From: an uncultured Rhizobiaceae group bacterium
GTDB lineage: Bacteria > Pseudomonadota > Alphaproteobacteria > Rhizobiales > Rhizobiaceae
Assembly (NCBI GenBank): GCA_938010435.1
Contig: CALLUS010000008.1
Coordinates: 62,001 to 126,000, forward strand
Length of the DNA stretch: 64,000 nucleotides
Reading direction: 5' to 3'
In this document: piece by piece, positions 1,637 through 60,127 of the stretch
How the letters are laid out: every line of letters begins with the position of its first letter
How positions within the stretch are numbered: position 1 is the first letter of the stretch
Program-made: the position numbers and the translations under genes
The notes under the pieces: model-generated
What the model was told of the DNA's origin: nothing
The model's input: only the letters and a program-made list of their open reading frames with translations
Database searches by the model: none

Positions 1637-1638
1637 TT

Positions 1639-2710: not shown

Positions 2711-2748
2711 ACAATAAACCCGTACAGGGTTCCAAAAGGAGACCAGCA

Positions 2749-3957: not shown

Positions 3958-3968
3958 GGGGAAAAATT

Positions 3969-6173: not shown

Positions 6174-6198
6174 GCATTTTCTCTCCATATTTAGCATT

Positions 6199-6234
6199 AA
6201 TCAGGCAGGGTCATTCCTGCCTGATTTCATTTTC
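6199..6234 (+). terminator. Hairpin terminator after fadJ
   Basis: A perfect 11-bp inverted repeat (AATCAGGCAGG at 6199-6209 and its complement at 6216-6226, 6-nt loop) follows the fadJ stop by 25 bp. The trailing tract is T-rich but broken (TCATTTTC), so termination may be partial. Confidence 0.75.
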
Positions 6235-6353
6235 AGGCAACATAAATATTAACTACACGTTAATGTCATCGATGCTTGTCCTCACAATTTTAATGTTGTC
6301 GGACTACACTTCCATTTGATAATAGCTCTATAGGGCATCTTGAGGGAGAGACT

Positions 6354-7625: not shown

Positions 7626-7663
7626 TGTGAATTCAAACACAATCTAAACATTGGGCCTCTCAG

Positions 7664-8281
7664 ATGGCTGCTACAATCGACTACTATTTCTTTGGAATTT
7701 CACCATTCACCTACCTTGGACATAAAGCTATTTGCGATGTCGCCGCCAAGCACAGTGCTAAATTGAATTTCAAGCCAGTTGGGCTTATGGGACTTTGGGA
7801 AATCTCTGGAGCTGTGCCTCCAGGACAACGCCCGCCGGTACGCCAACGCTATCGCGTTCTTGAACTAAAACGCGCAGCCGAGATGCGCGACCTCCCGATC
7901 AATGTGGAACCTGCACATTTTCCAGTCGACATCACGTTGGCAGACAGTTGCGCAATCGCGCTTACAGAAAAAGGCCTAGATCCAACCGACTATCTCGATG
8001 CCGTGTTCAAGGCGGTTTGGGTTGAAGACGCCAATATGAGCGAAGAAAGGGAAATAGCATCCCGCTTGACCGCCGCCGGCTTTGATGCCGACGAGATTAT
8101 TGCTTCTGCAAAATCCGATGAAGTTGCCGCTCTTCGTGCAACTTACACCAAAGAAGCGATCGCACAGGATGCCGTTGGGGTTCCAGCATTTGTTTTGAAT
8201 GGTGAAGTGTTTTGGGGCCAAGACCGCATCGAATATTTGGACAGCGCTCTTACCAGTGGACGTCAGCCGTACACTGCATAA
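7664..8281 (+). CDS. 2-hydroxychromene-2-carboxylate isomerase family (DsbA-like fold)
   Basis: 205 residues with the kappa-GST/DsbA-like architecture. The N-terminal FFGISPFTYLG has the Ser-Pro that replaces the CxxC of DsbA and positions glutathione in HCCA isomerases. The C-terminal DAVGVPAFVLNGEVFWGQDRIEYL is the cis-Pro and closing strand signature. Members perform glutathione-dependent isomerisations in aromatic degradation, but no aromatic pathway genes are adjacent, so the physiological substrate is open. It is not coupled to the preceding gene (38 bp gap). Confidence 0.85.
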   Translation: MAATIDYYFFGISPFTYLGHKAICDVAAKHSAKLNFKPVGLMGLWEISGAVPPGQRPPVRQRYRVLELKRAAEMRDLPINVEPAHFPVDITLADSCAIALTEKGLDPTDYLDAVFKAVWVEDANMSEEREIASRLTAAGFDADEIIASAKSDEVAALRATYTKEAIAQDAVGVPAFVLNGEVFWGQDRIEYLDSALTSGRQPYTA

Positions 8282-11085: not shown

Positions 11086-11296
11086 TGAGTTTAGCCCATA
11101 CAAGGAAACGGAAAAACGTTGAGGTTTTGGAGGTCGATGCAGTGTTTGAGACCGCAACACACCAGCGCGCGGAACCTATGGCGTGGTTGCTTCAACGTCA
11201 ACCACATCACTATTTTCGCATTCTTTTGTGATGTTGTTGAAACGGCGGGCGCTGAGCAATACATTGATCGCATAAATCAATTTGGACGCATCCCCA

Positions 11297-11704
11297 ATGG
11301 ACGGTATTTCTCATCAAGACACTCTCGTTTACGTTATGGTATCTATTTCGGCGGTGGATCGCCAAATGGAAGAGCAGGAAATGCTGCGTATTGGCAATAT
11401 CGTTAAAACCCTGCCGATTTTTAACCATTACAACAGTGATCAATTGGTGAACGCGGCCAAAACGTGCCGTGATATATTGCAAGAAGAAGAAGGGTTGGAA
11501 ACCATTTTGGGAATTGCAGCCAGCCTACCCCGCAATTTGCAAGAGACCGCTTACGCACTGGCTGCAGAGATTGCTGCAGCAGATTTAAATGTAAGCGCTG
11601 AAGAAGTACGACTGCTGCAATTGTTGCGCAACCATCTTGGCCTCGACAAGCTGACATGCGCAGCTCTCGAACTCGCCGCACGGGCGCGGCATCAGGACGG
11701 ATAA
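11297..11704 (+). CDS. TerB-like (tellurite resistance TerB family) protein
   Basis: About 135 residues from ATG 11297 (a TTG at 11282 is the alternative). The protein is all-helical and acidic, with VMVSISAVDRQMEEQEMLRIGNIV and a second related block ALAAEIAAADLNVSAEEVRLLQLLRNHLGL. These are two EF-hand-like D/E-bearing helices characteristic of the TerB fold, which binds metal at conserved acidic residues. No ter operon is present, so a tellurite role is not implied. It ends 6 bp before a membrane hydroxylase gene. Confidence 0.75.
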   Translation: MDGISHQDTLVYVMVSISAVDRQMEEQEMLRIGNIVKTLPIFNHYNSDQLVNAAKTCRDILQEEEGLETILGIAASLPRNLQETAYALAAEIAAADLNVSAEEVRLLQLLRNHLGLDKLTCAALELAARARHQDG

Positions 11705-16402: not shown

Positions 16403-18813
16403 AATTCACTCTCTCGTGGTTGAAAGACCATTTGGAAACCGACGCTTCGCTTGATCAGATTGTGGAAACACTCACAATGATCGGGCTTGAGGTGGAAGAT
16501 GTGGATGATCGTTCCGCGTTCCAACCGTTCACCATTGCTAAAGTTCTGACTGCAGAACGCCACCCTGATGCAGATAAATTGCAGGTGCTTTCTGTTGATA
16601 CGGGCGACGGAAAACCATTGCAGGTGGTTTGCGGCGCGCCAAATGCGCGTGCTGGAATGATCGGTGCATTTGCTGGTCCCGGCACTTACGTACCCGGTAT
16701 TGATGTAACTTTGGGCGTTGGCAATATTCGCGGCGTTGAAAGCTTCGGCATGATGTGTTCCGAGCGCGAACTCGAATTGTCTGAAGACCATGATGGCGTG
16801 ATCGACCTACCTGAAGACGCACCTGTGGGAACGCCATTTGCAGATTATGCAGGGCTGAATGACCCCGTGATAGAAATTGGCATTACGCCTAACCGCCCCG
16901 ATGCGCTTGGTGTTTCTGGAATTGCAAAAGATTTGGCTGCGGCCGGTCTTGGCACAGTCAAAACACCGGCCGTTGTAAAAGTGTCGGGCAATGGGGCTTG
17001 TCCGGTTGCTGTTGATCTCAGCTCAAACGGTGCATCAGAGTTCTGCCCTGCCTTTGGGTTGCAACTTGTACGTGGCGTAAAGAATGGCCCCTCTCCTAAA
17101 TGGATGCAACAGCGATTGAAAGCTATTGGTCTGCGACCAATTTCCGCTCTTGTAGACATTACGAACTACGTCACATTCGACCGTGGTCGTCCGCTTCACG
17201 TGTTTGATGCAGACAAGGTCAAAGGCAATCTAGCGGTGCGCCGTGCGTTGACTAAAGAAGAATTCTTGGCGCTTGATGGTAAAACATACACGCTATCACC
17301 AAGTCATTTCGTGATTGCAGATAACAATGGCCCAGAATCTCTAGCTGGCGTGATGGGGGGAGAAGAATCCGGTTGTTCTGATAAAACCGTCAATGTGCTA
17401 GTGGAATCTGCTCTTTGGGACCCACTCACAATTGCACGCACAGGTCGTGACCTCGGTATCATCACCGATGCACGCTATCGATTTGAACGCGGCGTTGACC
17501 CAAATTTCATGGAAGATGGTTTGGCACTTGGTACGCAGTTGGTCATCGACCTTTGCGGAGGTGAAGCCAGTGAGCCTTTGATCACAGGCACAGTTCCGAC
17601 ACCTGATCTCGTGATTGAATTTCCAATCAGTGAGACCAAGCGTCTGACCGGTATTGATGTCTCTTCAAAAGATTCTGCTGATATTCTCAAACGTCTTGGT
17701 TTTGGCGTTAAGGGCAGCGGCGAAACGCTAACCGTTTCAGTTCCTGGCAATCGCCCTGATGTGCATGGCAAGGCCGATCTCGTTGAAGAGGTGATGCGCA
17801 TTTTCGGCATCAACAATATTGAGCCGCAACCACTGCCCGCCATGAGCGCCGTTGGTCAAAAAATTCTAACCACGGGTCAATCCCGTACCCGCGATACACG
17901 TCGCACACTGGCATCACGTGGCATGAGTGAAGCTGTGCTCTATTCTTTCATCCCGAAAACCCACGCTGAAGCTTTTGGGGGCGGAGCTGCAGAACTCGCA
18001 CTATCTAACCCAATCGCGGCAGATATGTCTGATATGCGCCCTAGTCTTTTACCGAGCCTATTGGCAGCGGCGAAGCGCAATGTGGACCGTAGTTTTGGAG
18101 ACCTAGCCATATTTGAAGCAAGCCACGTTTATCACGGTGTGAACCCGTCTGATCAAGTGCGTACTGCGTCCGGCATTCGTCGTGGCACTAACAAACTTGA
18201 AAATTCCGGACGCCATTGGTCTGGGGCATCAGTATCCGTCGATGTCTTCGATGCGAAAGAAGATGCTCTGGCAGTTATTGCTGCCTGTGGCATGGACCCA
18301 AACAAAGTGCAAATTGAAGCTGGCGGACCTGATTGGTTCCACCCCGGCCGAAGCGGCACGTTGAAACTTGGCCCGAAGGTCGTTCTCGGCACATTCGGTG
18401 AATTTCATCCCATGACATTGGAACTCATGGATGTATCTGGTCCATTGTGCGGATTTGAGGTCAACTTGGAAGCCATCCCGCAACCACGCAAGAAAGCGAA
18501 CCGTTCCAAAGGTGCCGTCACCATGTCGGCCCTTCAGGCTGTCCATCGTGACTTCGCATTCGTGATGGACAAAACAGCAACTGCAACATCACTCTTGCGG
18601 GCGACTTCTGGCGCGGACAAAAAACTCATCACCGATGTAAAAGTTTTCGATCTGTTTGAAGGTCCATCGATTGGTGAAGACAAAAAATCTGTCGCCATTG
18701 AAGTGACCATTCAACCAACGGACAAAAGTTTAACCGACGAAGAGATCGACGTAATAACTGCTAAGATTATCGAGAATGTTGGCAAGTCAACGGGTGGTGT
18801 GTTGAGGGGATAA
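16399..18813 (+). CDS. pheT: Phenylalanyl-tRNA synthetase, beta subunit
   Basis: 804 residues, full length. Domains in order: EMAP/tRNA-binding (~40-150, [19 protein letters not shown]), B3/B4 editing (~210-390, [20 protein letters not shown] and [10 protein letters not shown]), B5 (~400-475), and a C-terminal ferredoxin-like anticodon-binding domain (~705-804, [12 protein letters not shown]). It recognises tRNA-Phe and edits mischarged Tyr. Its ATG overlaps the stop of the GFA gene, so PheS and PheT are made from one message with two extra products between them. Confidence 0.97.
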
Positions 18814-18850
18814 TTACCTCAGCACAAATTATGTTGGTCGAGAAAGCCCA

Positions 18851-19483
18851 TCAAGTTCCGGTCGGCATGGTTTTTTCAACGCGGCTGCTCACATAAAATA
18901 TGTGCTGTCCGATGCGACCCATACGTTTTAACTTGCTGCTCCAATCCGGAGTCACATAATTAGCGTGATAGTGGGTGGAACGGCGCGTTTGACGCGGCAG
19001 CAATTCGGCAGGGTGCTTTTCTTTTGAAAGAGTTTTCGCGAACCTGTTGGTGGTGAAGCCCAGCGCAATCTTTTTGGCGACTTGCCAACTTTCGAAGTCC
19101 CGCACACTGTCAGCCTTACCATCACACGTGAACGAAAACTGGCAACGGTTTCTCTTGTGTGAGTTTTGCCAAACAACGCGACAAATTGAATCTGGAAAAT
19201 AACCAGAGCGTGCACGATTTACAATCACTTGCGCGACAGCAATTTGACCCAACTGGCTTTCACCTCGCGCTTCGAAATATAGAGCAGCGGCGAGGCACCC
19301 ACTTTCGCGATCCATCTTTTCACGCGCGAATAGTGCAGGCTGCAATTCACGCAAGCCGTATTGTCCGTGGCCAGATGGATAACCGGCAAATGAAGTTTCG
19401 TAATTCTCGTTCACAACCTCAGCAAATGCAGGTGAGATTGAAGCGCAGCATGACAGAATTAAAATGAATAATTTGGTTTTCAT
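18851..19483 (-). CDS. Cell wall hydrolase, SleB family (Hydrolase_2)
   Basis: 210 residues. An N-terminal signal peptide (MKTKLFILILSCCASISPAFAE) is followed from ~60 by the SleB/CwlJ-type domain: CLAAALYFEARGESQLGQIAVAQVIVNRARSGYFPDSICRVVWQ, in which the Glu of EARGE is the presumed catalytic acid. C..QFSFTCDG follows. It would cleave peptidoglycan glycan strands in the periplasm. Gram-negative homologues are vegetative, not spore, enzymes. Convergent with pheT. Confidence 0.9.
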   Translation of the reverse strand: MKTKLFILILSCCASISPAFAEVVNENYETSFAGYPSGHGQYGLRELQPALFAREKMDRESGCLAAALYFEARGESQLGQIAVAQVIVNRARSGYFPDSICRVVWQNSHKRNRCQFSFTCDGKADSVRDFESWQVAKKIALGFTTNRFAKTLSKEKHPAELLPRQTRRSTHYHANYVTPDWSSKLKRMGRIGQHIFYVSSRVEKTMPTGT

Positions 19484-45452: not shown

Positions 45453-45662
45453 AATTATGAGGTTCCAGAAGATGTTACAAATACCAACACCATTCATATA
45501 GGCGATGACGGCGCGAGAAAAGTCGCGCAGGTCTATACACCAATGCAAAACATAATAGTGTGCAAAAACGCACTTGTTATAGACGAGCCATAAGCTATCG
45601 TCTTTCTATGATCGTGAGATCAGTTCCAAAGTGCAGTGCAAAACACGTGTTCGGGGTATAAA

Positions 45663-48434
45663 TTGCAGCAAGACAGCACACTAGCTGATGCCAACAGACC
45701 GTTAGACCGCAATTTGTTGCGATATGTCTGGCGACATACACGGGCTGAGCAAATTTGGGTTCTTTGCGTCATTTTAGCGTCCATGCCGACCTATTTTTTG
45801 GTTTTGGATCTTCCCGTTCGCATTATCAACCAGCCGATACAGGGCGTTGGTTTTGAGATTGCTGGCGCTACACAACAATTTCTTGACTTTACGCTTTCTT
45901 TGCCCGGATTCTTGGGGGGCAAAGAATATGTGCTTTTTGAAGGTTTCGAGCTGGAACGCTGGCCATATCTTATTGCCCTGAGCACCCTCTTTTTGGGTCT
46001 CGTTTGCGTCAATGGGCTCTTTAAATTCTACATCAACACATACAAAGGGCGCTTGGGTGAGCGGATGCTGCGCCGCATGCGTTATCAACTGACAGACCGC
46101 GTCTTGCGCTTTCCAATTCGTCATTTCAAACGCGTTAAAGGGTCCGAAATTGCATCCATGGTGAAGGATGAGATCGAACCGTTTGGTGAGTTCATTGGTG
46201 ACGCCTTTGTTCAACCCGTCTATTTGGGCGGGCAAGCACTCGTGGCATTTATATTCATTCTCAGTCAAAGCTTTTGGCTGGGGATGATTGCAGTTGCTAT
46301 TATTGCTATTCAGGTCACGCTCATTCCGTATTTGCGCAGGCGCGTTCTTGAATTGGGCAGAATGCGCCAATTGACCGCACGTCTTCTATCCGGTCGCATT
46401 GGTGAAATCGTTGATGGAATTTCCTCCATTCACGTAAACGACACATCAAACTATGAACGCGCTGAACTCTCTAGTAGGTTGAGCAAGATATTCTTCATTC
46501 GCTACGAACTTTATCAGCGGAAGTTTTTCATCAAGTTTATCAATAATTTCTTGGCGCAATTAACACCATTTCTATTTTACGTTGTGGGTGGTTATTTTGC
46601 GATCCGGGGCACACTTAATGTTGGCCAATTGATTGGTGTGATAAACGCCTACAAAGATCTCCCATCCCCCATCAACGGGTTGATTATGTGGGATCAGAAA
46701 CGCGTCGATATCAATATAAAATATGCGCAGATCGTGGAGCAATTTAACGTCAAAGATATTTCAGATGCTGAATTGCAACAACACAGCTACGATCCCGTAG
46801 AACCTTTGAGTGGTGAAATAACTGTCAGCAATTTGACTGTGATCGACGATACCGGAACGGCACTTGTAGAAGATGCGGACTTTACATTGGGTATCAATGA
46901 AATTGCATGTGCCATCGGCCCTCTCGGATCAGGCGCTGGTGCTACAGCAGATACTTTGGCCGGATTGATGAATCCGACTTCCGGGCGAATGTCATTGAAC
47001 GGACGTCAACTGAAAGACCTTCCCCAACGGATTCGAGGCCGAAGATTTTCTTACTGTGGCAGTGACGCTTATTTGCCTCAATCAACACTTCTAGACACGC
47101 TGCTCTATGTGAACAAACATGTGCCATTGCGGGAAACAGACGGATCAAATATCCCCGAACCATTGCACCCGAAAACGCAAGCCGAAGCAAAAGCATCCGG
47201 CAACAGTTTGCTCGATTATTATTCAGATTGGGTTGACTACGAAGCAATGGGCATTTCGGGACCGGAAGAAATTTACGGAAAAGTTCGCGATGTGTTGGAC
47301 GTGGTTGAAATGGGGGAAACAGTTTACGAACTGGCCATGCGTCAAACACTCGATCCAAAATTACACCCGGAACTTACCAGCAAGCTTGTGGATATGCGCA
47401 AAGTATTACGCGAACACATTGATGATTCTGAAATCAGCAACTTAGTCGAGGTTTGGGATTGGAACGGATATAACGAACACGCAACAATCGCTGAAAACCT
47501 GTTGTTTGGTACAGCCGTTGAAACAGATGATGTAAAATCGAGTCAGCTCGTCGCAAACGAGTATCTTCGTTCGGTTATGAAAAAGGACGGGTTGGACGAA
47601 GCCATGTTCGAGATGGGTGTGGAACTTGCCGAAACCGCGATCGAATTGTTTGCGGACTTATCTCCTGATAATCCATTTTTTGAACAGTTGAACTTCATGA
47701 CACCTGAACAGTTGGAGCTTTATGGCCCGATTGTTTCGCGGGCTAAAGAAAAAGGGTTTGAAGGTATCAATGAATTGGACCGTCGGATGTTGCTTCGACT
47801 GCCCTTCGACTATGTTGAGCCGCGCAACCGCCTCAGACTTTTAGACAAAAAACTGCAAGACAGAATTCTACTTGCACGACATGATTTTCACAAAAATTTA
47901 CCTCTCGATATGCAAGGCGAGATCGCGGTCTATGAGTTGAACACCTACAATGCATATAATTCTGTTCAAGATAATATACTCTTCGGGCGTGTGGCTTACG
48001 GCTCTTCCAACGGCCCTGAGAAAGTGAGAGCCCTGATTAAGGCATTGCTGCGTAAAAACGGTATGGATGATGACCTGTTTAGAGCAGGATTAGACTTTGA
48101 TATCGGCACCGGTGGTAAACGCTTGTCCGAAGCGCAAAGACAGCGACTCATTTTGGCGCGCGGGTTGCTCAAAGGCGCTGACCTCATGGTTATTAATAGA
48201 GGGTTGAATGCCTTGGACGCAAAGTCCCAAGAAGTGCTTATCAAAAAAGTTCTTGCGCGAGCACGCGGGGAAAACGGCAACAAACCGTTTGGTCTGTTCT
48301 GGGTGCTCACTTCTCCAAGAGTGGCTGAAGCTTTTGATCAGGTCTTTGTCTTCCGCAGACAAAAGCTTACGGCCACAGGGCATTCAAGCATTCTGGAAGA
48401 TTCTGATGATTTTTATAAACAATTGGTGGCATGA
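45663..48434 (+). CDS. ABC-exporter-like membrane protein with degenerate nucleotide-binding domain and large insertion
   Basis: 923 residues from TTG 45663, which has GGGG six bases before it; a GTG at 45636 is the alternative start. An exporter-type membrane domain (~20-330, several helices, VLRFPIRHFKRVKGSEIASMVKDEIEP) precedes an NBD (~380-915). The NBD has lost the key residues: Walker A reads GPLGSGAGAT (no Lys-Ser/Thr, ~419-428), the signature is LSEAQ (~821-825), Walker B ends VINRG (Asp to Asn, Glu to Arg, ~845-846) and the H-loop reads LTSP. About 300 residues are inserted between Q-loop and signature; three lid-like motifs occur (TLLDTLLYV, TIAENLLFG, SVQDNILFG). ATP hydrolysis is therefore doubtful. 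It heads a cyclic-nucleotide gene cluster; transport or sensing role unknown. Confidence 0.85.
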   Translation: MQQDSTLADANRPLDRNLLRYVWRHTRAEQIWVLCVILASMPTYFLVLDLPVRIINQPIQGVGFEIAGATQQFLDFTLSLPGFLGGKEYVLFEGFELERWPYLIALSTLFLGLVCVNGLFKFYINTYKGRLGERMLRRMRYQLTDRVLRFPIRHFKRVKGSEIASMVKDEIEPFGEFIGDAFVQPVYLGGQALVAFIFILSQSFWLGMIAVAIIAIQVTLIPYLRRRVLELGRMRQLTARLLSGRIGEIVDGISSIHVNDTSNYERAELSSRLSKIFFIRYELYQRKFFIKFINNFLAQLTPFLFYVVGGYFAIRGTLNVGQLIGVINAYKDLPSPINGLIMWDQKRVDINIKYAQIVEQFNVKDISDAELQQHSYDPVEPLSGEITVSNLTVIDDTGTALVEDADFTLGINEIACAIGPLGSGAGATADTLAGLMNPTSGRMSLNGRQLKDLPQRIRGRRFSYCGSDAYLPQSTLLDTLLYVNKHVPLRETDGSNIPEPLHPKTQAEAKASGNSLLDYYSDWVDYEAMGISGPEEIYGKVRDVLDVVEMGETVYELAMRQTLDPKLHPELTSKLVDMRKVLREHIDDSEISNLVEVWDWNGYNEHATIAENLLFGTAVETDDVKSSQLVANEYLRSVMKKDGLDEAMFEMGVELAETAIELFADLSPDNPFFEQLNFMTPEQLELYGPIVSRAKEKGFEGINELDRRMLLRLPFDYVEPRNRLRLLDKKLQDRILLARHDFHKNLPLDMQGEIAVYELNTYNAYNSVQDNILFGRVAYGSSNGPEKVRALIKALLRKNGMDDDLFRAGLDFDIGTGGKRLSEAQRQRLILARGLLKGADLMVINRGLNALDAKSQEVLIKKVLARARGENGNKPFGLFWVLTSPRVAEAFDQVFVFRRQKLTATGHSSILEDSDDFYKQLVA

Positions 48435-48481
48435 AATGTTATCCACCCGAAATGAACGCAGACGAAAGAAGGGGAAACACA

Positions 48482-48958
48482 ATGAGTAAGTTGAAGGATG
48501 AAGTCGACCTTTTACGCTCGATACCTATGTTGGCAAATTTGCCGGCCAATAAATTGAAGCTGTTGGCCTTTGCTTCTGATCGGGTTTCGTATGAAAAAGG
48601 CGACACCCTCTTTCACCAGGGTGACGATGCTGATGCTGCCTATATTGTTATTTCAGGGTGTGCTGATGTTCTTGTTTCAGCAGATGGGGATTCTGAAGCG
48701 ACTGCTGTTGCGCAATTGGGCCCCAACTCTGTAATCGGCGATATGGCAATATTGTGTGACATTCCAAGAACAGCAACCATTCGCACTTGCGAAAAGCTGG
48801 ATGCTTTGAAAATTCATAAAGACCACATGCTGGATATGATGAAAGAAAGCCCAACGCTTGCATTGGCTGTTTTGAAAGAGATTGTTCAGCGTTTGGCAAA
48901 AACCACTCAAGATCTTTCTGAAGCCCGCGAAGAAGTTGCAAGGTTGCAAACAGGATGA
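48482..48958 (+). CDS. Stand-alone cyclic nucleotide-binding domain protein
   Basis: 158 residues from ATG 48482 (AAGGGG upstream; the frame's earlier ATG at 48431 is less likely). The CAP-type beta-barrel occupies ~15-130: GDTLFHQGDDADAAYIVISGCADVLV, then the phosphate-binding cassette GPNSVIGDMAILCDIPRTATIRT, where Gly, Glu-like and Arg-Thr positions are broadly kept (the Glu position is Asp in IGDMA). There is no HTH, only a C-terminal helix (LSEAREEVARLQ). It is thus a cAMP/cGMP reader, not a transcription factor. It lies 48 bp after the ABC-like gene. Confidence 0.9.
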   Translation: MSKLKDEVDLLRSIPMLANLPANKLKLLAFASDRVSYEKGDTLFHQGDDADAAYIVISGCADVLVSADGDSEATAVAQLGPNSVIGDMAILCDIPRTATIRTCEKLDALKIHKDHMLDMMKESPTLALAVLKEIVQRLAKTTQDLSEAREEVARLQTG

Positions 48959-48982
48959 ATTTGAAACCCGCAGTTCTGGAGA

Positions 48983-49846
48983 ATGACTTTGCCTAAGCAG
49001 AAGTTTTTTGCAAGATTTTGGGGTGCAAGAGGCACCATGGCGTCCACATCAGACGATACCAATCGTTATGGAGGCAACACCGCTTGCGTTGAAGTAAATT
49101 GTGGTGATGAAACCTTGATCTTTGATGCCGGGTCTGGCCTTCGCCTCTTAGGCGACGACATCATGAAGCGGGTTGCACGTGATGATAAAAAAGACATCAA
49201 ACGCAAAAGACTGAATCTGTTTTTCACCCATTGTCATTATGATCATATTTCCGGATTCCCATTTTTTGCTCCGTTTTTCGACAAGAAAACCAAAATAGAT
49301 ATTTGGTCAGGTCATCTAACCGGAAAAAATAAAACCGAACGCATGATCCTCAATTATATGCGCCCGCCATTCTTTCCGGTCGGTCCTGAAGTGTTTTCTG
49401 CAAAACTGCGATATCGGGACTTTGAACCCTATGATAAATTATCCCCTGTCAAAGGGGTGAAAGTATCGACTCTTTCTCTCGATCACCATGACGAGTGTGT
49501 TGGGTACAGAGTTGATTTCGATGGTCGCAGTATTTGTTATATTACCGACACAACACACACGCTTGGCAAGCCCGACATGCGGATCATAGAGTTTGCACGT
49601 GATACAGATCTTATGATTTACGATGGCACTTACACCGACAGTGAGTTTCCGGCTTTTTCTAATTTTGGACATTCCACATGGCAAGAAGGCCAGCGTCTGG
49701 CTCTCTCGGCAAATGCAAAACGCTATTGTATTTTTCACCATCGACCCAGCCGTACTGACAAAGCGCTCGATAAGATTGATCAACAAGCAAAAGCGAAATT
49801 CAAGAAATCTTGGGCTGCTTACGAAGGGCTTGTCATCAAGGTCTAG
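48983..49846 (+). CDS. MBL-fold metallo-hydrolase, candidate cyclic nucleotide phosphodiesterase
   Basis: 287 residues (ATG 48983; TTG 48989 would be better spaced from CTGGAG). It begins FWGARGTMASTSDDTNRYGGNTACVEVNCG, and has THCHYDHISGFPFF (HxHxDH), ITDTTH (metal-bridging Asp) and a late FHHRP His. This family (WGxRGS start) is often near or fused to CNB and cyclase domains. By gene context it may hydrolyse cyclic nucleotides, but RNase Z-like or other phosphodiester activity is possible. Confidence 0.85.
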   Translation: MTLPKQKFFARFWGARGTMASTSDDTNRYGGNTACVEVNCGDETLIFDAGSGLRLLGDDIMKRVARDDKKDIKRKRLNLFFTHCHYDHISGFPFFAPFFDKKTKIDIWSGHLTGKNKTERMILNYMRPPFFPVGPEVFSAKLRYRDFEPYDKLSPVKGVKVSTLSLDHHDECVGYRVDFDGRSICYITDTTHTLGKPDMRIIEFARDTDLMIYDGTYTDSEFPAFSNFGHSTWQEGQRLALSANAKRYCIFHHRPSRTDKALDKIDQQAKAKFKKSWAAYEGLVIKV

Positions 49847-49933
49847 TCACGTCAAAGCCCGATGAGTTGAATAGACAATAATCAGGCAACAAAGCTAAGT
49901 TTAACGATCACCTGTTTGGAAAAACCAATTTAT

Positions 49934-51274
49934 ATGAATAATTTGTCGGCTACATTTCAGGAGGCCCTTAAAAATATCTGGCCTTCACCTGGCAAAAACC
50001 GTATCCCCGACAGAGTCGCGGAATCGATTGCACGCAATGACGATATCAGTGAAATTTTAGTCAAACTGATTCAGTTATTTGTCTTTGCTCTATGGGCTAT
50101 TTTTTACCTCGCCGCACCAAAACCTGATCCCGACACAATTTCTCAAGTACCTTTGGTGACGTCAGTTTATCTGATTTTTACAATTGCGTTATTGCTTTTG
50201 GCATTGGTGAGAAGAACTCCAAGCTGGCTGATTTATACATCCATAATCATTGATATGGCTCTGCTGACTTATCTGATCTGGAGTTTCCATATTCAGTATG
50301 GGCAACCTGCTTCTTTTTCTTTAAAAGTGGTGGAAGTGATGAACTACTTTGTTCTAATCGCTCTCCGCGCCGTTCGCTTTGAAGCCCGTTACGTTCTGGC
50401 AGCTGGAGTAGCCGCTGCATTGTTCTGGTCATTGATGATTTTGTATACGATCACCAATGATGCAGATGACGCAATGATTACACGGGACTATGTGACCTAT
50501 ATCACCAGTAACTCCATTCTGATCGGTGCCGAGGTCAGCAAGATTATTTCGATGATAATGGTCTCGATTGTTTTGGCTATCTCTGTGCGTCGCGCTCATA
50601 GTTTTTTAGCCTTATCTGTATCTGAAAGCAGTGCTGCAAAGGACCTGTCACGATTTCTCACCGATGATGTGGCCAAGCAAATTCGCGGCTCAAATCAAAA
50701 GATTGAGCCCGGGCAAGGTGTTCGTCGTGACGCTGTTATACTGAACATCGACATTCGCGGATTCACCACCCTAGCGGCTAACCTCACCCCTGATGAAGCG
50801 ATGGCCATATTATCAGACTATCAACATCAGATTGTTCCCATCATTCACAAGCATGGTGGGACAGTAGATAAATTTATGGGTGATGGAATTATGGTGACAT
50901 TCGGCGTCTCTTCAGACGACCCAAAATATTGCGCAAATGCAATCCGGTGCATCGAAGAAATTCTGATTTCCAAAGAACTTTGGCAAGGTCCGGCGGCTGA
51001 AGTAACTGCCAATATCGCAGCTATGTTTGGACCTGTCATTTACGGTGCCGTTGGTGATGGTGACAGACTAGAATTCACCGTCATCGGTTCACACGTAAAC
51101 CTTGCCGCAAAACTAGAGAAACAAAATAAAACTCTTGGAACCACAGCTTTGTGTGGAACAATTTTACTCAAAAAAGCTATCGAACAGGGTTATATAAATT
51201 CAAAAGAACGGCGCGAGATTTTAGTAAAACTCGATGAAAGCAGCCCCCCTTATAAAGTCCAGGTTTTCGCATGA
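49934..51274 (+). CDS. Six-helix membrane class III adenylate/guanylate cyclase
   Basis: 446 residues from ATG 49934 (TTG 49916 is the alternative; neither has a strong RBS). Six hydrophobic helices (~residues 40-220) precede a class III cyclase domain (~250-430): VILNIDIRGFTTLA (first metal Asp), VDKFMGDGIM (Lys and second metal Asp) and the LEFTVIGSHVNLAAKLEK loop. In that loop the transition-state Arg is Lys (N at ~389, K at ~393). It may be a weak homodimer or need a partner. Its 3' end overlaps the next cyclase by 4 bp. Confidence 0.9.
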   Translation: MNNLSATFQEALKNIWPSPGKNRIPDRVAESIARNDDISEILVKLIQLFVFALWAIFYLAAPKPDPDTISQVPLVTSVYLIFTIALLLLALVRRTPSWLIYTSIIIDMALLTYLIWSFHIQYGQPASFSLKVVEVMNYFVLIALRAVRFEARYVLAAGVAAALFWSLMILYTITNDADDAMITRDYVTYITSNSILIGAEVSKIISMIMVSIVLAISVRRAHSFLALSVSESSAAKDLSRFLTDDVAKQIRGSNQKIEPGQGVRRDAVILNIDIRGFTTLAANLTPDEAMAILSDYQHQIVPIIHKHGGTVDKFMGDGIMVTFGVSSDDPKYCANAIRCIEEILISKELWQGPAAEVTANIAAMFGPVIYGAVGDGDRLEFTVIGSHVNLAAKLEKQNKTLGTTALCGTILLKKAIEQGYINSKERREILVKLDESSPPYKVQVFA

Positions 51275-53004
51275 ACGTAACTCCTGTTCCCAACAAATCA
51301 GCGAGACACTTATTTAACGGAATCACAACCGCAAGAGTGCGTTCAACAAGCGGCCTTATTTTGATGGTGTATGTCACCTGCCATCTCGTTGCACACTGTT
51401 TTGGTCTGATATCTCAAGAAGCGTTGAGTGTTGCAGGCGAAACCATGAAAACGGTTTGGCGTTGGTTGCCTCTGACAGTAATTTTATATGCTGCATTGAT
51501 AGCTCATTTTGGCAGCGCACTTTTCCATATCTATCAACAGCGCTCCTTAAAGATGCGCATTCGTGAATGGTTCCAATTGGTGCTTGGGATATTGATCCCT
51601 TTGCTTCTTGTCTCACATGTCATGGGCACACGCTATGCATCGGCAAGATATGGAATAAACGACAGTTACGCCTATGTGCTGCTTTCCACTTTTGTGTTTT
51701 CGCCGGTGAACGGATATCTCAATGCTGCGGGCTTAGTCGCTTCTTGGGTTCACGGGTGCATCGGTGTGCACATGTGGGCGCGGTTTAAACCCTGGTATTC
51801 GCAAGGCTATTTTCATTGGGGCTTGAGTGTTGCAACGCTTCTCCCGATCACTTCACTAGCAGGCTATTTATCAGCCGGACGTCGTATTGTGCCACTCGCA
51901 TCTGATGGAGAATGGTTGGAGGTCTACTACGAAAATCTGCAGCTTTCGTCAGATGATGTCTGGACTTGGATAGGGCAAGACACAGAGTTTGTTCGTAACC
52001 TGTTGATCGCAATTATCATATTGGTTTTTATAGCGCGTGTTGTGCGAACTATATTGCAGTCTCATGGCGACACTATTTCAATTTCGTATTTTGACGGCCC
52101 TATTCTCAACGGACCCAAAGGCCCAACACTTTTAGAACACAGTTTGTCAAACAATGTGCCCCACGCGAGTGTTTGTGGCGGACGCGGGAGATGTTCTACC
52201 TGTCGAGTGCGCATTCTGGAATCAGACTTCGATCTTGAACCGCCTGATGAGAATGAAACGCGCGTTTTGAAACGCATCAACGCTACAACTGACGTGCGGC
52301 TGGCCTGTCAAATTCGACCTGTTGGAAAAATGAATGTTATGCGGCTACTGCCATCAGAAGCAGATATGAATGTTGTCGAAAAAGACAGCAACTGGGCTAG
52401 CGGCCGCGAACGCGTGGTTACCGTTATGTTCGTTGATCTACGAGATTTCACCGGAACGTCAGAAAACAAACTGCCTTTCGATGTTGTTTATCTCATCAAT
52501 CAGTTTTCACGCGCAATGGGGATTGCGGTTGAAGGTCATAATGGACGAATCGATAAATTCTTAGGCGATGGATTTATGGCGTTGTTTGGTGTGAACGAAA
52601 CCAACAAACAGGGTGCAAGGAACGCGCTTGCCGCAACCGAAGCCATAATCGCAGAACTGAGTGTATTGAACGAACGATTGAAGGGCGATCTGGCAAAACC
52701 ACTTCGAATGGGTATCGGTCTGCATTCAGGCAATGTCATACTAGGTGAAATGGGGTATGGATCAGCACGTGGACTGACAGCATTAGGTGAAACGGTCAAT
52801 CTTGCCAGCCGTCTGGAAAGTGCGACCAAAGAACAAAAGTGCACGGTCTGTGTATCTCAAGCAACATTGGATGTGGCACAGTTCACCCCTGTCACGTTAA
52901 GGCCTAAACGCATTGATATACGTGGGTTGAAATCTAAAGTTGAAATGTATGCGATTGAGCATCCTGATGAACTGGATGTTATCGAAAATAATGGGAACGG
53001 ATGA
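51271..53004 (+). CDS. CyaC-like cyclase: histidine-rich membrane anchor, [2Fe-2S] domain, class III cyclase
   Basis: 577 residues. The N-terminal membrane part (~30-265) has His-bearing helices (MVYVTCHLVAHCFG, IAHFGSALFHIY, LLLVSHVMGT, WVHGCIGVHMW), like heme b anchors of succinate:quinone reductases. A plant-type ferredoxin domain (~270-355) has Cys302-x5-Cys308-x2-Cys311 and Cys346. The cyclase domain (~375-570) keeps FVDLRDFTG, IDKFLGDGFM and ETVNLASRLE, all catalytic positions intact. The anchor resembles S. meliloti CyaC, a redox/quinone-regulated adenylate cyclase. Here it is plausibly a quinone or redox-state sensor making cAMP. Confidence 0.92.
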   Translation: MNVTPVPNKSARHLFNGITTARVRSTSGLILMVYVTCHLVAHCFGLISQEALSVAGETMKTVWRWLPLTVILYAALIAHFGSALFHIYQQRSLKMRIREWFQLVLGILIPLLLVSHVMGTRYASARYGINDSYAYVLLSTFVFSPVNGYLNAAGLVASWVHGCIGVHMWARFKPWYSQGYFHWGLSVATLLPITSLAGYLSAGRRIVPLASDGEWLEVYYENLQLSSDDVWTWIGQDTEFVRNLLIAIIILVFIARVVRTILQSHGDTISISYFDGPILNGPKGPTLLEHSLSNNVPHASVCGGRGRCSTCRVRILESDFDLEPPDENETRVLKRINATTDVRLACQIRPVGKMNVMRLLPSEADMNVVEKDSNWASGRERVVTVMFVDLRDFTGTSENKLPFDVVYLINQFSRAMGIAVEGHNGRIDKFLGDGFMALFGVNETNKQGARNALAATEAIIAELSVLNERLKGDLAKPLRMGIGLHSGNVILGEMGYGSARGLTALGETVNLASRLESATKEQKCTVCVSQATLDVAQFTPVTLRPKRIDIRGLKSKVEMYAIEHPDELDVIENNGNG

Positions 53005-53008
53005 AGAC

Positions 53009-53731
53009 ATGATGCTCAAGACCAGCACTACCACTGCCGTACTTCAATCAGTGAGTATAATGACAATATGTTTGGTGGGATCTGTATTTTACTCAACCGC
53101 ACCAGCCTCTGCTGCCTGTTCAGATTATCCTGCTCCATCTGTAAACTGGTCAAGCTGCCGCAAGCGCAATGTTATTCTAACTGAGAATGATCTCACAGGC
53201 TCTAACTTTGCCGAGATCGATCTTTTAGGATCAGACCTGCGGAACACCAAATTTGATAATACTAATTTTACAAAAGCGCAAATGTCACGGGTGAACATGT
53301 CTTCTTCCAGTGCGGCAAAAGCCGACTTCACGAAAGTAGAAGCCACACGGGCTGTATTTCAAAGCACGAATCTGCAGAACTCCAATTTCGAGAAAGCGGT
53401 CATGTTCAGGAGTGATTTTTCAAATAGTGATATGCGCAATGCAAGTTTGGCCAAATCTGAATTCAGCAGATCCAAATTTTCTGGAACGGATTTAGAAAAT
53501 GCAAAACTGTCGTTTACAAATCTAGCACGTGCGGACTTTCGTGATGCTAATTTAAAGAATGTCGACCTCAACACCAGCTGGACTTATCTCACCCGTTTTG
53601 AAGGCGTCGATTTGTCATCAGCCAAGAACCTCTCACAAGCTCAGATACAAATTTCTTGCGGTGATCAATCCACCAAACTTCCCGAAGGCTTGATTGCCCC
53701 TCCAACGTGGCCCTGCACAGTGACAGATTGA
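53009..53731 (+). CDS. Exported pentapeptide-repeat protein
   Basis: 240 residues from ATG 53009, just after the CyaC-like stop (53004). A signal peptide ends near APASAAC. The mature part from ~55 to ~200 is made of A(D/N)LxX-type pentapeptides (LTGSNFAEIDLLGSDLRNTKFDN region and NFEKAVMFRSDF, etc.), which form a right-handed beta-helix. Two Cys pairs flank it (CSDYPAPSVNWSSC; ISCG...WPC), likely disulfides in the periplasm. The role is unknown; its position ties it to the cyclase operon. Confidence 0.85.
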   Translation: MMLKTSTTTAVLQSVSIMTICLVGSVFYSTAPASAACSDYPAPSVNWSSCRKRNVILTENDLTGSNFAEIDLLGSDLRNTKFDNTNFTKAQMSRVNMSSSSAAKADFTKVEATRAVFQSTNLQNSNFEKAVMFRSDFSNSDMRNASLAKSEFSRSKFSGTDLENAKLSFTNLARADFRDANLKNVDLNTSWTYLTRFEGVDLSSAKNLSQAQIQISCGDQSTKLPEGLIAPPTWPCTVTD

Positions 53732-53756: not shown

Positions 53757-54941
53757 CTATCGCGTCAGTTCTTTCATCGCATCGCCAATGCCAGACAACG
53801 TCAGTGGGTACATGCGGTTTGACAGACACTCTTTGATCATTGCGGTGGACTGGGTGTAGCGCCAACCTTTTTCCGGAACGGGGTTAAGCCAGACTGTGGA
53901 TGGCCACTGATCCACGGCACGGCGCAGCCAAGTTTCTCCACTTTCCTCGTTCCAGTGTTCAACGGAACCACCGGGATAAACCACCTCATACGGACTCATG
54001 GCAGCATCGCCAACAAAGATACATTTATATGTCGATCCATAAGTGCGCAGAACATCCCATGTGCTCATCTGTTCACCGTAACGACGGCGATTATCTTTCC
54101 AAACTCCTTCGTACAAGCAATTGTGGAAGTAATAGAATTCCATGTGCTTAAACTCGGCTTTTGCGGCAGAGAACAACTCTTCAACTTGTCGGATATAGCC
54201 ATCCATAGAACCACCGACATCTAGAAACAAAAGCAGTTTGACAGCGTTGCGTCGTTCAGGTCTCGTCTTCACATCCAGATAGCCGTTTTCAGCGGTGGAC
54301 CGGATTGTACCGTTCAGATCAAATTCGTCGGCCTCCCCCTCGCGCGCCCAGCGGCGCAAGCGTTTCAACGCAACTTTTATGTTGCGTGTGCCAAGTTCTA
54401 CATTGTCATCAAAATTGCGGAATTCACGTTTGTCCCAGACCTTCACAGCAGTGCGGTTTCGTCCTGCATTTTGGCCTATTCGAACACCTTCAGGGTTGTA
54501 GCCGTAAGCCCCAAAAGGCGATGTGCCCGCAGTGCCAATCCATTTGGACCCACCTTGATGACGTTTTTCCTGCTCCTCAAGGCGCTTTTTCAGCGTCTCC
54601 ATCAGCTTTTCCCAGCCACCCAGAGCTTCAATTTCTTTTTTCTCTTCATCTGACAGATGCTTCTCGGCCATCTTGCGTAGCCATTCTTCAGGGATCGGCT
54701 GTTCACCAACCTCCGAGGTGCCAGACACAGTTTCCAATCCTTTGAAAACTTCTGAAAAAACGCGGTCAAATTTGTCTATATTTCGTTCATCTTTGACCAA
54801 AGCTGAACGAGAAAGGAAATAGAACTCCTCTACGTCCCACATTGCCACACCCTTTTCCATCGCTTCCAACAACGTGAGATATTCACGCAAGGAAATCGGA
54901 ACTTTTGCCTCTTTAAGTGCGTAAAATAAGTTTGAGAACAT
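53757..54941 (-). CDS. VWA domain (CoxE-like) protein
   Basis: 394 residues. The N-terminal helical part (FYALKEAKVPISLREYLTLLEAM) and a charged middle (GWEKLMETLKKRLEEQEKRHQGG) precede a VWA domain (~210-380) with MIDAS motif FLDVGGSMDG. Proteins of this type work with MoxR-family AAA+ ATPases in maturation or chaperoning of enzymes. A MoxR gene occurs on the same strand at 57.4 kb, and they are separated by metA, an SDR and a DUF805 gene. Tail-to-tail with the pentapeptide gene. Confidence 0.9.
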   Translation of the reverse strand: MFSNLFYALKEAKVPISLREYLTLLEAMEKGVAMWDVEEFYFLSRSALVKDERNIDKFDRVFSEVFKGLETVSGTSEVGEQPIPEEWLRKMAEKHLSDEEKKEIEALGGWEKLMETLKKRLEEQEKRHQGGSKWIGTAGTSPFGAYGYNPEGVRIGQNAGRNRTAVKVWDKREFRNFDDNVELGTRNIKVALKRLRRWAREGEADEFDLNGTIRSTAENGYLDVKTRPERRNAVKLLLFLDVGGSMDGYIRQVEELFSAAKAEFKHMEFYYFHNCLYEGVWKDNRRRYGEQMSTWDVLRTYGSTYKCIFVGDAAMSPYEVVYPGGSVEHWNEESGETWLRRAVDQWPSTVWLNPVPEKGWRYTQSTAMIKECLSNRMYPLTLSGIGDAMKELTR

Positions 54942-57386: not shown

Positions 57387-58244
57387 CTAAGTGTTTGAGC
57401 GGCGGGCCATGAATGCCAGTCGCTCAAACAAATGCACGTCCTGCTCATTTTTCAACAATGCGCCGTGCAGCTTCGGCAATGCGTTGGTCGATTTTTCGCG
57501 CAAAGTTTCCGGGTCCACATCATCAGCAACCAACAGTCGTATCCAATCAAGCGCTTCACTGGTTGATGGCTTTTTCTTCAAACCCGGTGTCTCGCGAACT
57601 TCGTAGAATTGCGTCAATGCTTCCCGCACCAAACGTTGTTTGATACCAGGATAATGCACTTCAACAATCTGGTTCAAAATATCCGCTTCGGGGAATGAGA
57701 TATAATGGAAAAAACAACGGCGCAAGAATGCATCTGGTAGTTCTTTTTCGTTGTTTGAAGTAATGATGACGATAGGACGGTTTTTTGCCTTTATCGTTTC
57801 ATCCAATTCATAACAATAGAATTCCATCTTATCGAGTTCTTGCAAAAGGTCGTTTGGAAACTCGATGTCAGCCTTGTCGATCTCATCGATCAGAAGTACC
57901 ACCTTCTCGTCCGTTTCAAACGCCTCCCAGAGTTTTCCCTTCTTTATATAGTTGCGAATATCTTGAACTTTCTTTTCGCCCAACTGGCTATCTCTCAACC
58001 GCGACACCGCATCATATTCATATAGACCCTGTTGCGCTTTGGTTGTGGACTTCACGTTCCATTCCAGCATTCTTAAGCCGAGCGCCTGCGATATCTGCTT
58101 AGCCAATTCGGTCTTACCCGTTCCAGGCTCACCTTTTACGAGCAAGGGGCGCTCAAGTGTGATGGCTGCATTGACTGCAGTGGTCAGGTCTGCGCCGGCA
58201 ACATACGAAGCGGTGCCTGCAAAACGTTTTTTCTGATCGGACAT
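57387..58244 (-). CDS. MoxR-family AAA+ ATPase
   Basis: 285 residues with Walker A GEPGTGKTELAKQ (~38-50), Walker B VVLLIDEIDKAD (~118-129), sensor-1 region IVITSNNEKELPDAFLRRCFFHY, and an Arg finger in LRRCF. MoxR proteins remodel partner complexes with VWA proteins. The likely partner is the CoxE-like VWA protein at 53.8-54.9 kb. Convergent with the DUF805 gene. Confidence 0.93.
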   Translation of the reverse strand: MSDQKKRFAGTASYVAGADLTTAVNAAITLERPLLVKGEPGTGKTELAKQISQALGLRMLEWNVKSTTKAQQGLYEYDAVSRLRDSQLGEKKVQDIRNYIKKGKLWEAFETDEKVVLLIDEIDKADIEFPNDLLQELDKMEFYCYELDETIKAKNRPIVIITSNNEKELPDAFLRRCFFHYISFPEADILNQIVEVHYPGIKQRLVREALTQFYEVRETPGLKKKPSTSEALDWIRLLVADDVDPETLREKSTNALPKLHGALLKNEQDVHLFERLAFMARRSNT

Positions 58245-58306: not shown

Positions 58307-60127
58307 TTATTTCGGAGTTTCTGCATTCCAACCAGCCAACGTGAGGCCTTTTAGAAACAAATCCATGTGTTCAGATTTGGTGAATGGGTGACCAGCCTTC
58401 ACAGCTTCGATTGGGTAAACTGGAAACACCTTTTGAACTTCACCATAGGTGCGTTTGGCTCCCTCCACATCACCCGCAAGGGCCTGACACACAGCTGCAA
58501 GAATCTGATGAAAATACCAATTGGGCCTTTTAGCCGCGGCTTCCAGAGCGAGTTGCTGAGCCTCGTGATATTTGCCCTCAATCATTGACGCCAGTGCCAT
58601 GGACCGGATGAACAAACTTGCATGGGGGTCCGTTGGTGAAACTTTGAGTGCACGAACAGCCATTACACGCGCCTCTTGCGTCTCCCCAATACACACCAGC
58701 ATTCTAGCGAGTTCGCCGATGGCAGAAGCGGAATTTGGATTGAGCGATAAAGCTTGCCGTTCCGCTGCAATAGCTTCAGACATTCTGCCTTTTAACGACA
58801 GTGCTGTTCCCAACGTGAAATGTGCATTGGCATCTGCTTCGTCGTAGCGAACAGCCATGCGCGCAAGTCGATGTGTTTCATCAACTTTGGCAGAAAAGTC
58901 ATCGTATTTACCCGTCCAAATTTCGATCATGTGGCAAAATGCCATCAGCGCATAAGCTCTTCCATTTTCCGGATCTAGCTGCAGAGCCTTCTCAGCATTG
59001 GCCATGGCCTGAACAATATTCTTATAATTGCCACGCCAATAATGCCAACGCGCACGCATGAGGAGTTCCCAAGCATCGACATCGCGCGGCCGACTGTGTG
59101 CTGCCTTCCAAGCTTCATGGCGCAGGAATTCCGGTTCGATATTGCCAACAATCTGGCGAACAATCTCATCATGAATTTCATAGAAGTCTTGATTTTTATG
59201 ATCGAAACTCTGGGACCAAACTGTAAATTGGTTTGCACAATCGACTAAGAACGCAGTGACACGAATTGAACTACCTTTGTTGCGAATGCGTCCCTTCAAC
59301 AAGTACCGAACACCCAGTTCACGTGTAATATCATTGTCGGTGTAACTTGCATCAGAATAGTTCATTGAAGATCGCGGTGAAATCACATTGAGCCATTTTG
59401 AGTGTGCCAAACCATCAGCAACATCAGAGGCCAGTCCCAATGCAACCCATGCATCCTCTTCCTCGGCAACATCCCCACCTTTTGGAATTTCAAACGGAAG
59501 AACGGCAATGCCCCGTTCGCTTTTGAATACATGAGTATCGTCTTGAATCTCATCAATAACTTGAACAGACGGGAGTTTGTTGTAGGTCGATTTATCGGAT
59601 AACTGCCAGAGACGGACCGGATTAGAAATCCCTTTCAATATCCGAAATCCAAGGTCGTTGAACCGAAAATCATCGCTCGAAGAAATTCTGGAATAGGCTT
59701 CACCACATACCAGTGTGGATGCCGGTTCTGCCAGTTGCTGTAAACGGGCAGCTACGTTGACCGCCGGGCCGGATATACGTTCATTTTCTCTTAAAACCGG
59801 CCCGTACGAGATGCCTGAACGAAAACTCAATCTGTCTTCTAAGGAAAGATGTTCATTTGCCCTTACAACTTGCTGATGAAACTCGAGTAAGCACTTTGAA
59901 GCTCCGCAGGGTTTCTTGAATTCCGCAAAAACCCCGTCTCCTGCGGTGTCGATAACATCTCCCCCGTGTTTAACAATAAGATCTCCCAACTGATGAAAAA
60001 GAGAGGCTAAATACTTGCGGGTCTCTATTGCATCACGTTCAATGTGAGACGAATAAGCAACAGCATCGACAAAAGCCGCACAGCTCTTGTCCCATACATA
60101 TCCGCTATTCTTAACCACCGTCTCCAA
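58307..60127 (-). CDS. Class III adenylate/guanylate cyclase with C-terminal TPR domain
   Basis: 606 residues, apparently from a TTG at 60127 (a GTG three codons later is also possible). The cyclase domain (~15-180) has AAFVDAVAYSSHIERD (metal Asp), IDTAGDGVFAEF and GPAVNVAARLQQL (transition-state Asn and Arg, both kept). A CadC/TolB-like segment (~200-340) and TPR repeats (~370-560, NGRAYALMAFCHMIEIW, ANAHFTLGTALSLKGRM) follow. No TM helix is seen, so it is cytoplasmic. Rhizobial genomes hold many such cyclases with protein-protein-interaction tails. This is the third cyclase in the window. Confidence 0.9.
   Translation of the reverse strand: METVVKNSGYVWDKSCAAFVDAVAYSSHIERDAIETRKYLASLFHQLGDLIVKHGGDVIDTAGDGVFAEFKKPCGASKCLLEFHQQVVRANEHLSLEDRLSFRSGISYGPVLRENERISGPAVNVAARLQQLAEPASTLVCGEAYSRISSSDDFRFNDLGFRILKGISNPVRLWQLSDKSTYNKLPSVQVIDEIQDDTHVFKSERGIAVLPFEIPKGGDVAEEEDAWVALGLASDVADGLAHSKWLNVISPRSSMNYSDASYTDNDITRELGVRYLLKGRIRNKGSSIRVTAFLVDCANQFTVWSQSFDHKNQDFYEIHDEIVRQIVGNIEPEFLRHEAWKAAHSRPRDVDAWELLMRARWHYWRGNYKNIVQAMANAEKALQLDPENGRAYALMAFCHMIEIWTGKYDDFSAKVDETHRLARMAVRYDEADANAHFTLGTALSLKGRMSEAIAAERQALSLNPNSASAIGELARMLVCIGETQEARVMAVRALKVSPTDPHASLFIRSMALASMIEGKYHEAQQLALEAAAKRPNWYFHQILAAVCQALAGDVEGAKRTYGEVQKVFPVYPIEAVKAGHPFTKSEHMDLFLKGLTLAGWNAETPK

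Follow-up and report, generated by a model that had tools for sequence, protein, structure and literature searches.

The DNA analyzed here (the window) is a 64,000-nucleotide stretch of contig CALLUS010000008.1 from an uncultured Rhizobiaceae bacterium (assembly GCA_938010435.1), whose genome comprises 3.57 Mb in 37 contigs. Between positions 45636 and 53731, six co-directional open reading frames (ORFs) encode an ATP-binding cassette (ABC) exporter-like membrane protein, a protein with only a cyclic-nucleotide-binding (CNB) domain, a metallo-β-lactamase (MBL)-fold hydrolase, two nucleotide cyclases (CYC4 and a CyaC-type enzyme), and an exported pentapeptide-repeat protein (Table 1). An earlier note on this DNA had described the six genes as a tightly packed cyclic-nucleotide circuit built around a dead ABC-like protein, with intact CNB and CyaC-type motifs and an ATGA overlap between the two cyclase genes. 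This layout was confirmed, since the successive ORFs are spaced by −4, 24, 69, −4, and −65 bases and the ATGA overlap is genuine. Pfam domains agreed with the named modules for all six proteins, with ABC_membrane and a partial ABC_tran in the ABC gene, cNMP_binding in the CNB gene, and Lactamase_B_2, Guanylate_cyc, Fer2 plus Guanylate_cyc, and Pentapeptide in the remaining four; the motifs held up as well, as detailed below. The starts of the CNB and pentapeptide ORFs as called look too early. For the CNB gene, the ATG at 48482 is likelier because its homologues mostly have about 150–160 aa and the upstream sequence is purine-rich, which leaves a gap of 47 bases after the ABC gene. Among named relatives, the closest are Rhizobiaceae-labelled metagenome genomes, and in one of them (locus L090) the ABC-like protein is 90% identical.

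Table 1. Genes and sequence features of the six-gene locus, in window coordinates
Feature	Position	Strand	Details
ABC-exporter-like membrane protein	45636–48434	+	932 aa; alternative start TTG 45663; transmembrane domain plus split, degenerate nucleotide-binding domain
Walker A remnant GPLGSGAGAT	46917–46946	+	catalytic Lys replaced by Ala
Insert of ~270 aa within the nucleotide-binding domain	47136–47945	+	contains copy 2 of the Q-loop/'ATLxENLLFG' element
Degenerate signature LSEAQRQ and Walker B LMVINRGLNALD	48120–48218	+	
CNB-only protein	48431–48958	+	PF00027; likely start ATG 48482
Phosphate-binding cassette SVIGDMAILCDIPRTATI	48728–48781	+	inside the CNB gene
MBL-fold hydrolase, RNase Z-like	48983–49846	+	Lactamase_B_2; HxHxDH metal site intact, 49229–49246
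CYC4 (second cyclase), membrane class III nucleotide cyclase	49916–51274	+	Guanylate_cyc; alternative start ATG 49934
CyaC-type cyclase	51271–53004	+	membrane anchor; 2Fe-2S domain 52114–52320; class III catalytic domain 52411–52959
Pentapeptide-repeat protein, exported	52940–53731	+	likely start ATG 53009 or 53012

The first protein of the locus joins the transmembrane domain of an exporter to an ABC nucleotide-binding fold, with both PF00664 and PF00005 matched above cut-off. Its AlphaFold model, built with 35 sequences (mean pLDDT 81, pTM 0.74), matched the structures of ABC exporters, including the heterodimeric TmrAB and TM287/288. None of the catalytic motifs is intact, the Walker B reading MVINRG and the signature LSEAQ. 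The insert separates the two halves of the nucleotide-binding domain, and the Q-loop/'ATLxENLLFG' element occurs three times, before, inside, and just after it. In profile comparisons, copies 2 and 3 were related with 97.8% probability, copies 1 and 3 with 89.6%, and copies 1 and 2 with 43.4%.

The loss of these motifs recurs across the family. From 120 loci, comprising 40 picked from the 98 genomes with an ABC match in a sample of 289 Alphaproteobacteria (hereafter the class) and 80 named ones, 118 ABC homologues were obtained. The Walker A Lys is retained in 26 of them, all in the class sample (26/39; named set, 0/79), and the residue after this position is Glu in 72 and Asp in 27, replacing Ser/Thr. 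The Walker B Asp and Glu are retained in 6 and 24 homologues, respectively, and the H-loop His in 13. Compared with L090, the gene has a nonsynonymous divergence (dN) of 0.071, with 0.044 in the transmembrane half and 0.076–0.096 in the nucleotide-binding half; because the synonymous divergence (dS) is saturated, the ratio of 0.022 is indicative only. The low dN therefore points to constraint on the whole ORF, the dead domain included. Judged by its motifs, the ABC-like protein of the window is catalytically dead, yet conserved. A recent pseudogene was rejected, as the motif losses recur in homologues and the ORF is constrained, and so was mobile or phage cargo, as no relative was found in the viral_contigs and phages collections.

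The family was detected in 98 of the 289 class genomes (E ≤ 1e-30), mostly near full length; the few partial matches include some from fragmented contigs and one covering the C-terminal part only (G283). In a phylum sample, 20 of 249 genomes gave matches, 19 within the class and one outside it (G396, partial, profile positions 17–341), and among the 19, those of G283, G413, and G421 cover only the C-terminal part. In these three and a further order-mate, G436, we observed ORFs that match the family only at profile positions ~522–887.

The CNB protein carries a complete phosphate-binding cassette. Among 114 homologues, the Gly and the Arg of the cassette are invariant (114/114 each), and the acidic position is Glu in 104 and Asp in 10; the window protein has Asp, as against the Glu of the majority. 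The best match among solved structures is a single Toxoplasma chain, and the cAMP domains of PKA RI-alpha come next (1.8e-18). The protein thus appears to be built for cyclic-nucleotide binding, with cyclic AMP (cAMP) as the likeliest ligand.

Its family occurs in 96 of the 289 genomes (E ≤ 1e-20), and 93 genomes contain both ABC and CNB. The two genes share a contig in 89 of these and lie no more than 6 kb apart in 88, the window's genome included. The pair is conserved across the class beyond chance, and the exact order of the six genes is not. In a sample of 11 loci from 10 genomes, mostly picked for a shared ABC/CNB frame or an unusually long ABC frame, ABC and CNB form a single ORF at nine loci from eight genomes and five families, whereas at the remaining two (L207 and L208) they lie in separate frames or ORFs. 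The fused proteins have 1003–1103 aa with the CNB part at the C-terminus. All nine matched cNMP_binding and ABC_membrane above the Pfam cut-off and six matched ABC_tran; the CNB parts retain the Gly, Glu/Asp, and Arg in 9/9, and the Walker A motif is unrecognizable in several. This close adjacency in 88 of 93 genomes, together with the nine natural fusions, makes it very probable that the CNB protein acts on its ABC-like partner.

The CyaC-type cyclase is a likely source of the ligand. In all 22 homologues, the anchor histidines (H38, H42, H79, H116, and H161) and the 2Fe-2S cysteines (C302, C308, C311, and C346) are conserved; of the catalytic residues, D389, K429, D433, and T503 are found in 22/22 and N510 and R514 in 21/22. 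The enzyme is therefore catalytically intact by motif and is predicted to be of the quinone- or redox-responsive kind. Across the 289 genomes, ABC and CyaC occur together in 75, ABC alone in 23, CyaC alone in five, and neither in 186, counts that are uncorrected for kinship.

The window enzyme resembles the redox-regulated di-heme adenylate cyclase CyaC of Sinorhizobium meliloti (SMc01818) in its anchor His and 2Fe-2S Cys residues, a likeness that rests on published residue numbers and not on a comparison of the protein sequences. Wissig and co-workers are said to have reported in 2019 that the S. meliloti enzyme bears an iron–sulfur cluster. The residues K410, T484, N491, and R495, mutated in S. 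meliloti according to excerpts of PMC10463352, correspond to K429, T503, N510, and R514 of the window, each shifted by +19. The same excerpts describe as its partners the TetR-like CycR and the transcription factor Clr, and not an ABC-CNB pair, whereas the window CyaC is encoded in an operon together with ABC-CNB, MBL, and a further cyclase.

That further cyclase, CYC4, retains the two metal Asp residues, the base-binding Lys, the Thr, and the transition-state Asn, but its transition-state Arg is replaced by Lys, so that the full class III set is incomplete. The same position is Lys in 19 and Asn in two of 21 homologues. In 20 of the 24 genomes with CYC4 and ABC on one contig (own genome included), the two are at most 30 kb apart. 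CYC4 is perhaps an additional, putative source of cAMP. One of the two cyclases lies within ~10 kb of the ABC-CNB pair in 26 of 73 named loci (the 80 named loci, which are closest relatives with many Rhizobium among them, minus seven no longer than 9 kb).

All 60 MBL homologues have the HxHxDH motif with a further His and Asp, as well as a GHS[T/S] motif. The metal site is shared with RNase Z and the MBL phosphodiesterases, but the window protein scores far under the cut-offs of both the RNase Z and the cyclic-nucleotide phosphodiesterase families. Its best weak matches are to RNase Z, ahead of any cyclic-nucleotide phosphodiesterase; the curated family for cAMP phosphodiesterase activity, NF041851, was not matched (27.4 bits, where 400 are required), and the MBL family is present in 47 genomes without ABC. 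A role as the enzyme that ends the signal by hydrolyzing cAMP, raised as a possibility in the earlier note, is compatible with the intact metal site, but is unproven and would be the weakest step of the proposed circuit. CNB and MBL are separated in Phyllobacterium sp. T1293 by a metallophosphoesterase gene (L192 15270–17039, −), which is another candidate for cAMP removal. Of the loci examined, only those of the window's clade have the pentapeptide gene beside ABC-CNB. A Pycsar defense system, consisting of a PycC cyclase and an effector, was rejected, as the six proteins gave only generic matches to cyclase and CNB domains.

Outside the window's clade, the pair usually has a different setting, next to a conserved glycosyltransferase/Opp cluster. 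The set conserved beside ABC-CNB by Pfam and NCBIfam comprises two GT28-type and two GT4-type glycosyltransferases, a histidine phosphatase, a gene labelled PDA, a small protein that weakly matches a PH domain, and oppDF-oppA-oppB-oppC, and beyond these MBL, a methyltransferase, CYC4, and a response regulator; it was drawn partly from 20 loci picked for MBL or CYC4 on the contig and is to that extent a biased sample. The scanned PDA copy has no Pfam or NCBIfam match, and the label follows its Phyllobacterium counterpart, annotated 'polysaccharide deacetylase family protein'. At 30 of the 40 class-sample loci and at 56 of the 73 named loci, at least one of these glycosyltransferases was present. 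GT28 occurs in 93 of the 289 genomes, 91 of which also have ABC; two have GT28 only and seven ABC only (Fisher value 7e-64, kinship ignored). Both genes lie on one contig in 70 genomes, in 63 of them no more than 6 kb apart.

The window's genome holds this set on a different contig, C9, where GT28, GT4, GT28b, and GT4a occupy ~133.5–138.3 kb and oppC, oppB, oppA, and oppDF 141.7–147.7 kb, all on the minus strand. Adjoining this glycosyltransferase operon (locus L188) are genes for proteins that resemble a flippase-like membrane protein, a FemAB/GNAT protein, and a D-alanyl-D-alanine carboxypeptidase (5458–8220 and 10251–11489, −), and a gene for a GGDEF-EAL-like protein between the Opp and glycosyltransferase genes (16509–18878, +) hints that c-di-GMP may also feed into the system. 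Their order is that of rhizobia, in which ABC-CNB comes after GT28b, and therefore the pair probably became detached from the glycan cluster in the window's lineage, where it now joins MBL, CYC4, CyaC, and the pentapeptide gene. The complete set of six was found at five of the 73 named loci (L086, L087, L089, L090, and L113), co-directional in four, and the exact six-gene operon is restricted to one Rhizobiaceae clade. Just past the end of the operon, the window carries genes resembling those of a CoxE-like VWA protein (53757–54941, −) and a MoxR-like ATPase (57387–58244, −). About 5 kb downstream of the operon lies an ORF with a class III cyclase domain followed by an apparent TPR-type C-terminal region (58307–60127, −).

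In S. meliloti 1021, the region 822.6–845.0 kb of pSymB contains GT4a, PDA, MBL, oppDF-A-B-C, GT28, GT4, GT28b, ABC, and CNB. Two anchor tags, SMb21240 at 807.9 kb and SMb21245 at 813.5 kb, are given in excerpts of PMC12542648; at ~1.1 kb per tag, the region would therefore span approximately SMb21252–SMb21272, an assignment that is positional only, with wider spacing toward SMb21307 (970.9 kb). SMb20813, considered as the ABC gene of this species, was dropped, since the match at 841.7–844.4 kb and the tag anchors lead to SMb2125x–2127x. According to the excerpted passages of PMC10128002, nine genes between smb21252 and smb21271 are needed for an uncharacterized surface polysaccharide (phazolicin-protecting polysaccharide, PPP), insertions in this locus as well as smb21252 and smb21265 mutants have reduced phazolicin resistance, and cyaA insertions were depleted. 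Excerpts of PMC10315480 report that seven of the nine PPP genes are up-regulated during predation, and those of PMC5498481 that cAMP-Clr controls a neighboring polysaccharide cluster, nodP2-smb21248. The position suggests that the ABC-CNB copy of S. meliloti lies in the PPP locus. In S. meliloti, the GT28/GT4/Opp set stands next to ABC-CNB, whereas the window's genome carries it on C9, away from the pair. Beside the MBL gene on pSymB, we also observed a cyclase-resembling ORF (L191 1491–2693, +), which may be SMb21257, termed a 'hypothetical adenylate cyclase, truncated' in the excerpts of PMC12542648.

Taken as a whole, these results can be read as a pathway from cAMP through the CNB protein to an ATP-independent protein of the ABC fold that serves a surface glycan, a reading that we hold tentatively, at a little under an even chance. 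The CyaC-type cyclase would make cAMP according to the state of the quinone pool, which would constitute the redox input, with CYC4 perhaps as a second source. The CNB protein would bind the cyclic nucleotide, most likely cAMP, and would directly switch the conformation or assembly of the dead ABC-like protein in place of ATP. The ABC-CNB module may then serve the assembly or export of a surface glycan from the GT28/GT4 cluster that holds the Opp-type importer. The bolder form, in which cAMP has replaced ATP as the driving or gating ligand of the ABC fold, making a second-messenger-gated glycan flippase or channel switched by CyaC and quinone across the Alphaproteobacteria, is possible but doubtful.

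The proposals of the earlier note fared unevenly here. Its suggestion that the ABC-like protein is the output gained support from the natural cases in which ABC and CNB are one polypeptide. Of the local cAMP circuit, the modules and motifs were confirmed, and ABC and CyaC proved to co-occur. The wider glycosyltransferase and Opp context had been missed, as had the Lys at the transition-state position of CYC4, and in other genomes the ABC-CNB core proved to be co-conserved while the six-gene set outside the window's clade did not.

A number of observations weigh against the pathway from cAMP to a surface glycan. Because the Walker A Lys is present in two-thirds of the class-sample homologues (26/39) and the fusion L202 (G267; 940–4248, +) retains Lys-Ser in Walker A as well as Asp-Glu in Walker B, some members of the family may still use ATP, and the state of L202 could be ancestral and ATP-using. 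The Ala two residues past the cassette Arg is absent in four of the nine fusions, all of family f24. On a tree of 73 ABC domains, with the G154 copy L083 scored as fused on length alone, the fused state requires one change, and the fusions may therefore represent a single event of fusion or fission. Where CyaC and ABC share a contig, they are no more than 30 kb apart in just seven of 18 genomes (own genome included), the phyletic co-occurrence tests ignore kinship, and in seven genomes ABC occurs without a GT28 match (G044, G071, G169, G210, G255, G266, and G283). The S. meliloti evidence is affected as well. The ABC and CNB tags were matched to PPP by position, and the excerpted passages do not state whether they belong to the nine genes; the effect of cyaA on phazolicin sensitivity is described there as small, with the single mutant little changed (PMC10128002). 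In the pSymB record of strain 1021, the ABC frame is split into overlapping ORFs of 237 and 762 aa (L191 17685–18398 and 18148–20436, +), whereas in the record of strain 2011 it is a single ORF of 916 aa (L213 1189–3939, +). As the PPP phenotypes were obtained in Sm1021 (excerpts of PMC10128002), either the 1021 record is in error or PPP is independent of an intact ABC-like protein, and our confidence was lowered because of this broken frame. In the literature searched, no binding, activity, or export test on these proteins was found.

The same evidence can be arranged differently, and the likelihoods that we give to the alternatives overlap in part with one another and with that of the cAMP-to-glycan pathway. 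The ABC-like protein might transport nothing and act as a signaling platform that gathers or switches glycosyltransferases when the CNB protein binds its cyclic nucleotide. The missing catalytic motifs of most members, the faster-evolving nucleotide-binding half, and the neighboring glycosyltransferases all fit such a scaffold, but the most conserved part of the protein is the transmembrane half with its exporter fold, for which a pure scaffold has no obvious need, and we consider this somewhat unlikely. An ordinary exporter with a weak or partner-supplied ATPase, in which the ABC-like protein would pair with an active half-transporter and CNB would be a minor regulator, is suggested by the heterodimers TmrAB and TM287/288 among the structural matches, by the 26 of 118 homologues with the Walker A Lys, and by the Lys-Ser and Asp-Glu of L202. 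The signature and Walker B motifs of most members are degenerate, however, and would complete a partner's site poorly, and no second exporter half was found among the conserved neighbors examined, so that this explanation appears quite improbable.

It is also conceivable that no shared circuit exists, the cyclases, MBL, and ABC-CNB being mere neighbors and the CNB protein answering the general cAMP pool. In favor of this, PF00211 is matched 10 times in the window's genome, and CyaC lies more than 30 kb from ABC in 11 of the 18 same-contig genomes. Against mere vicinity stand the proximity of CYC4 in 20 of 24 such genomes and of CyaC in seven of 18, the strong ABC-CyaC co-occurrence, and the CYC4 or CyaC-type cyclase found within ~10 kb at 26 of the 73 named loci, and this alternative is in our estimate unlikely.

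Precedents exist both for ABC exporters linked to CNB proteins and for degenerate ABC proteins. With the type IV ABC exporters (MsbA, PCAT1, and TmrAB), the window protein has the transmembrane and nucleotide-binding folds in common, and it differs in its lost catalytic motifs, its ~270-aa insert, and its CNB partner. A parallel case of a CNB protein with an ABC exporter is the NHLM bacteriocin export system, with the ABC protein TIGR03796 and the CNB-containing 'bacteriocin-type transport-associated protein' TIGR03896, to which the window proteins gave weak NCBIfam matches well under the cut-offs (116 vs. 853 bits and 40 vs. 161 bits, respectively). Searches of the open-licence PMC literature with narrow terms returned no paper on the ABC-CNB pair or the whole set, nor did they turn up any described pairing or fusion of a catalytically dead ABC exporter with a receptor for cyclic nucleotides.

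The output of cAMP in bacteria is usually seen as transcription through CRP-like factors. The presence of the ABC-CNB pair in about a third of the sampled class genomes suggests a direct, post-translational output of cyclic nucleotides on a membrane machine, and the pair may be a concrete case of a bacterial ABC exporter that gave up ATP. For S. meliloti, it would offer a testable hypothesis for the unexplained PPP locus and for the route by which cAMP might reach it.

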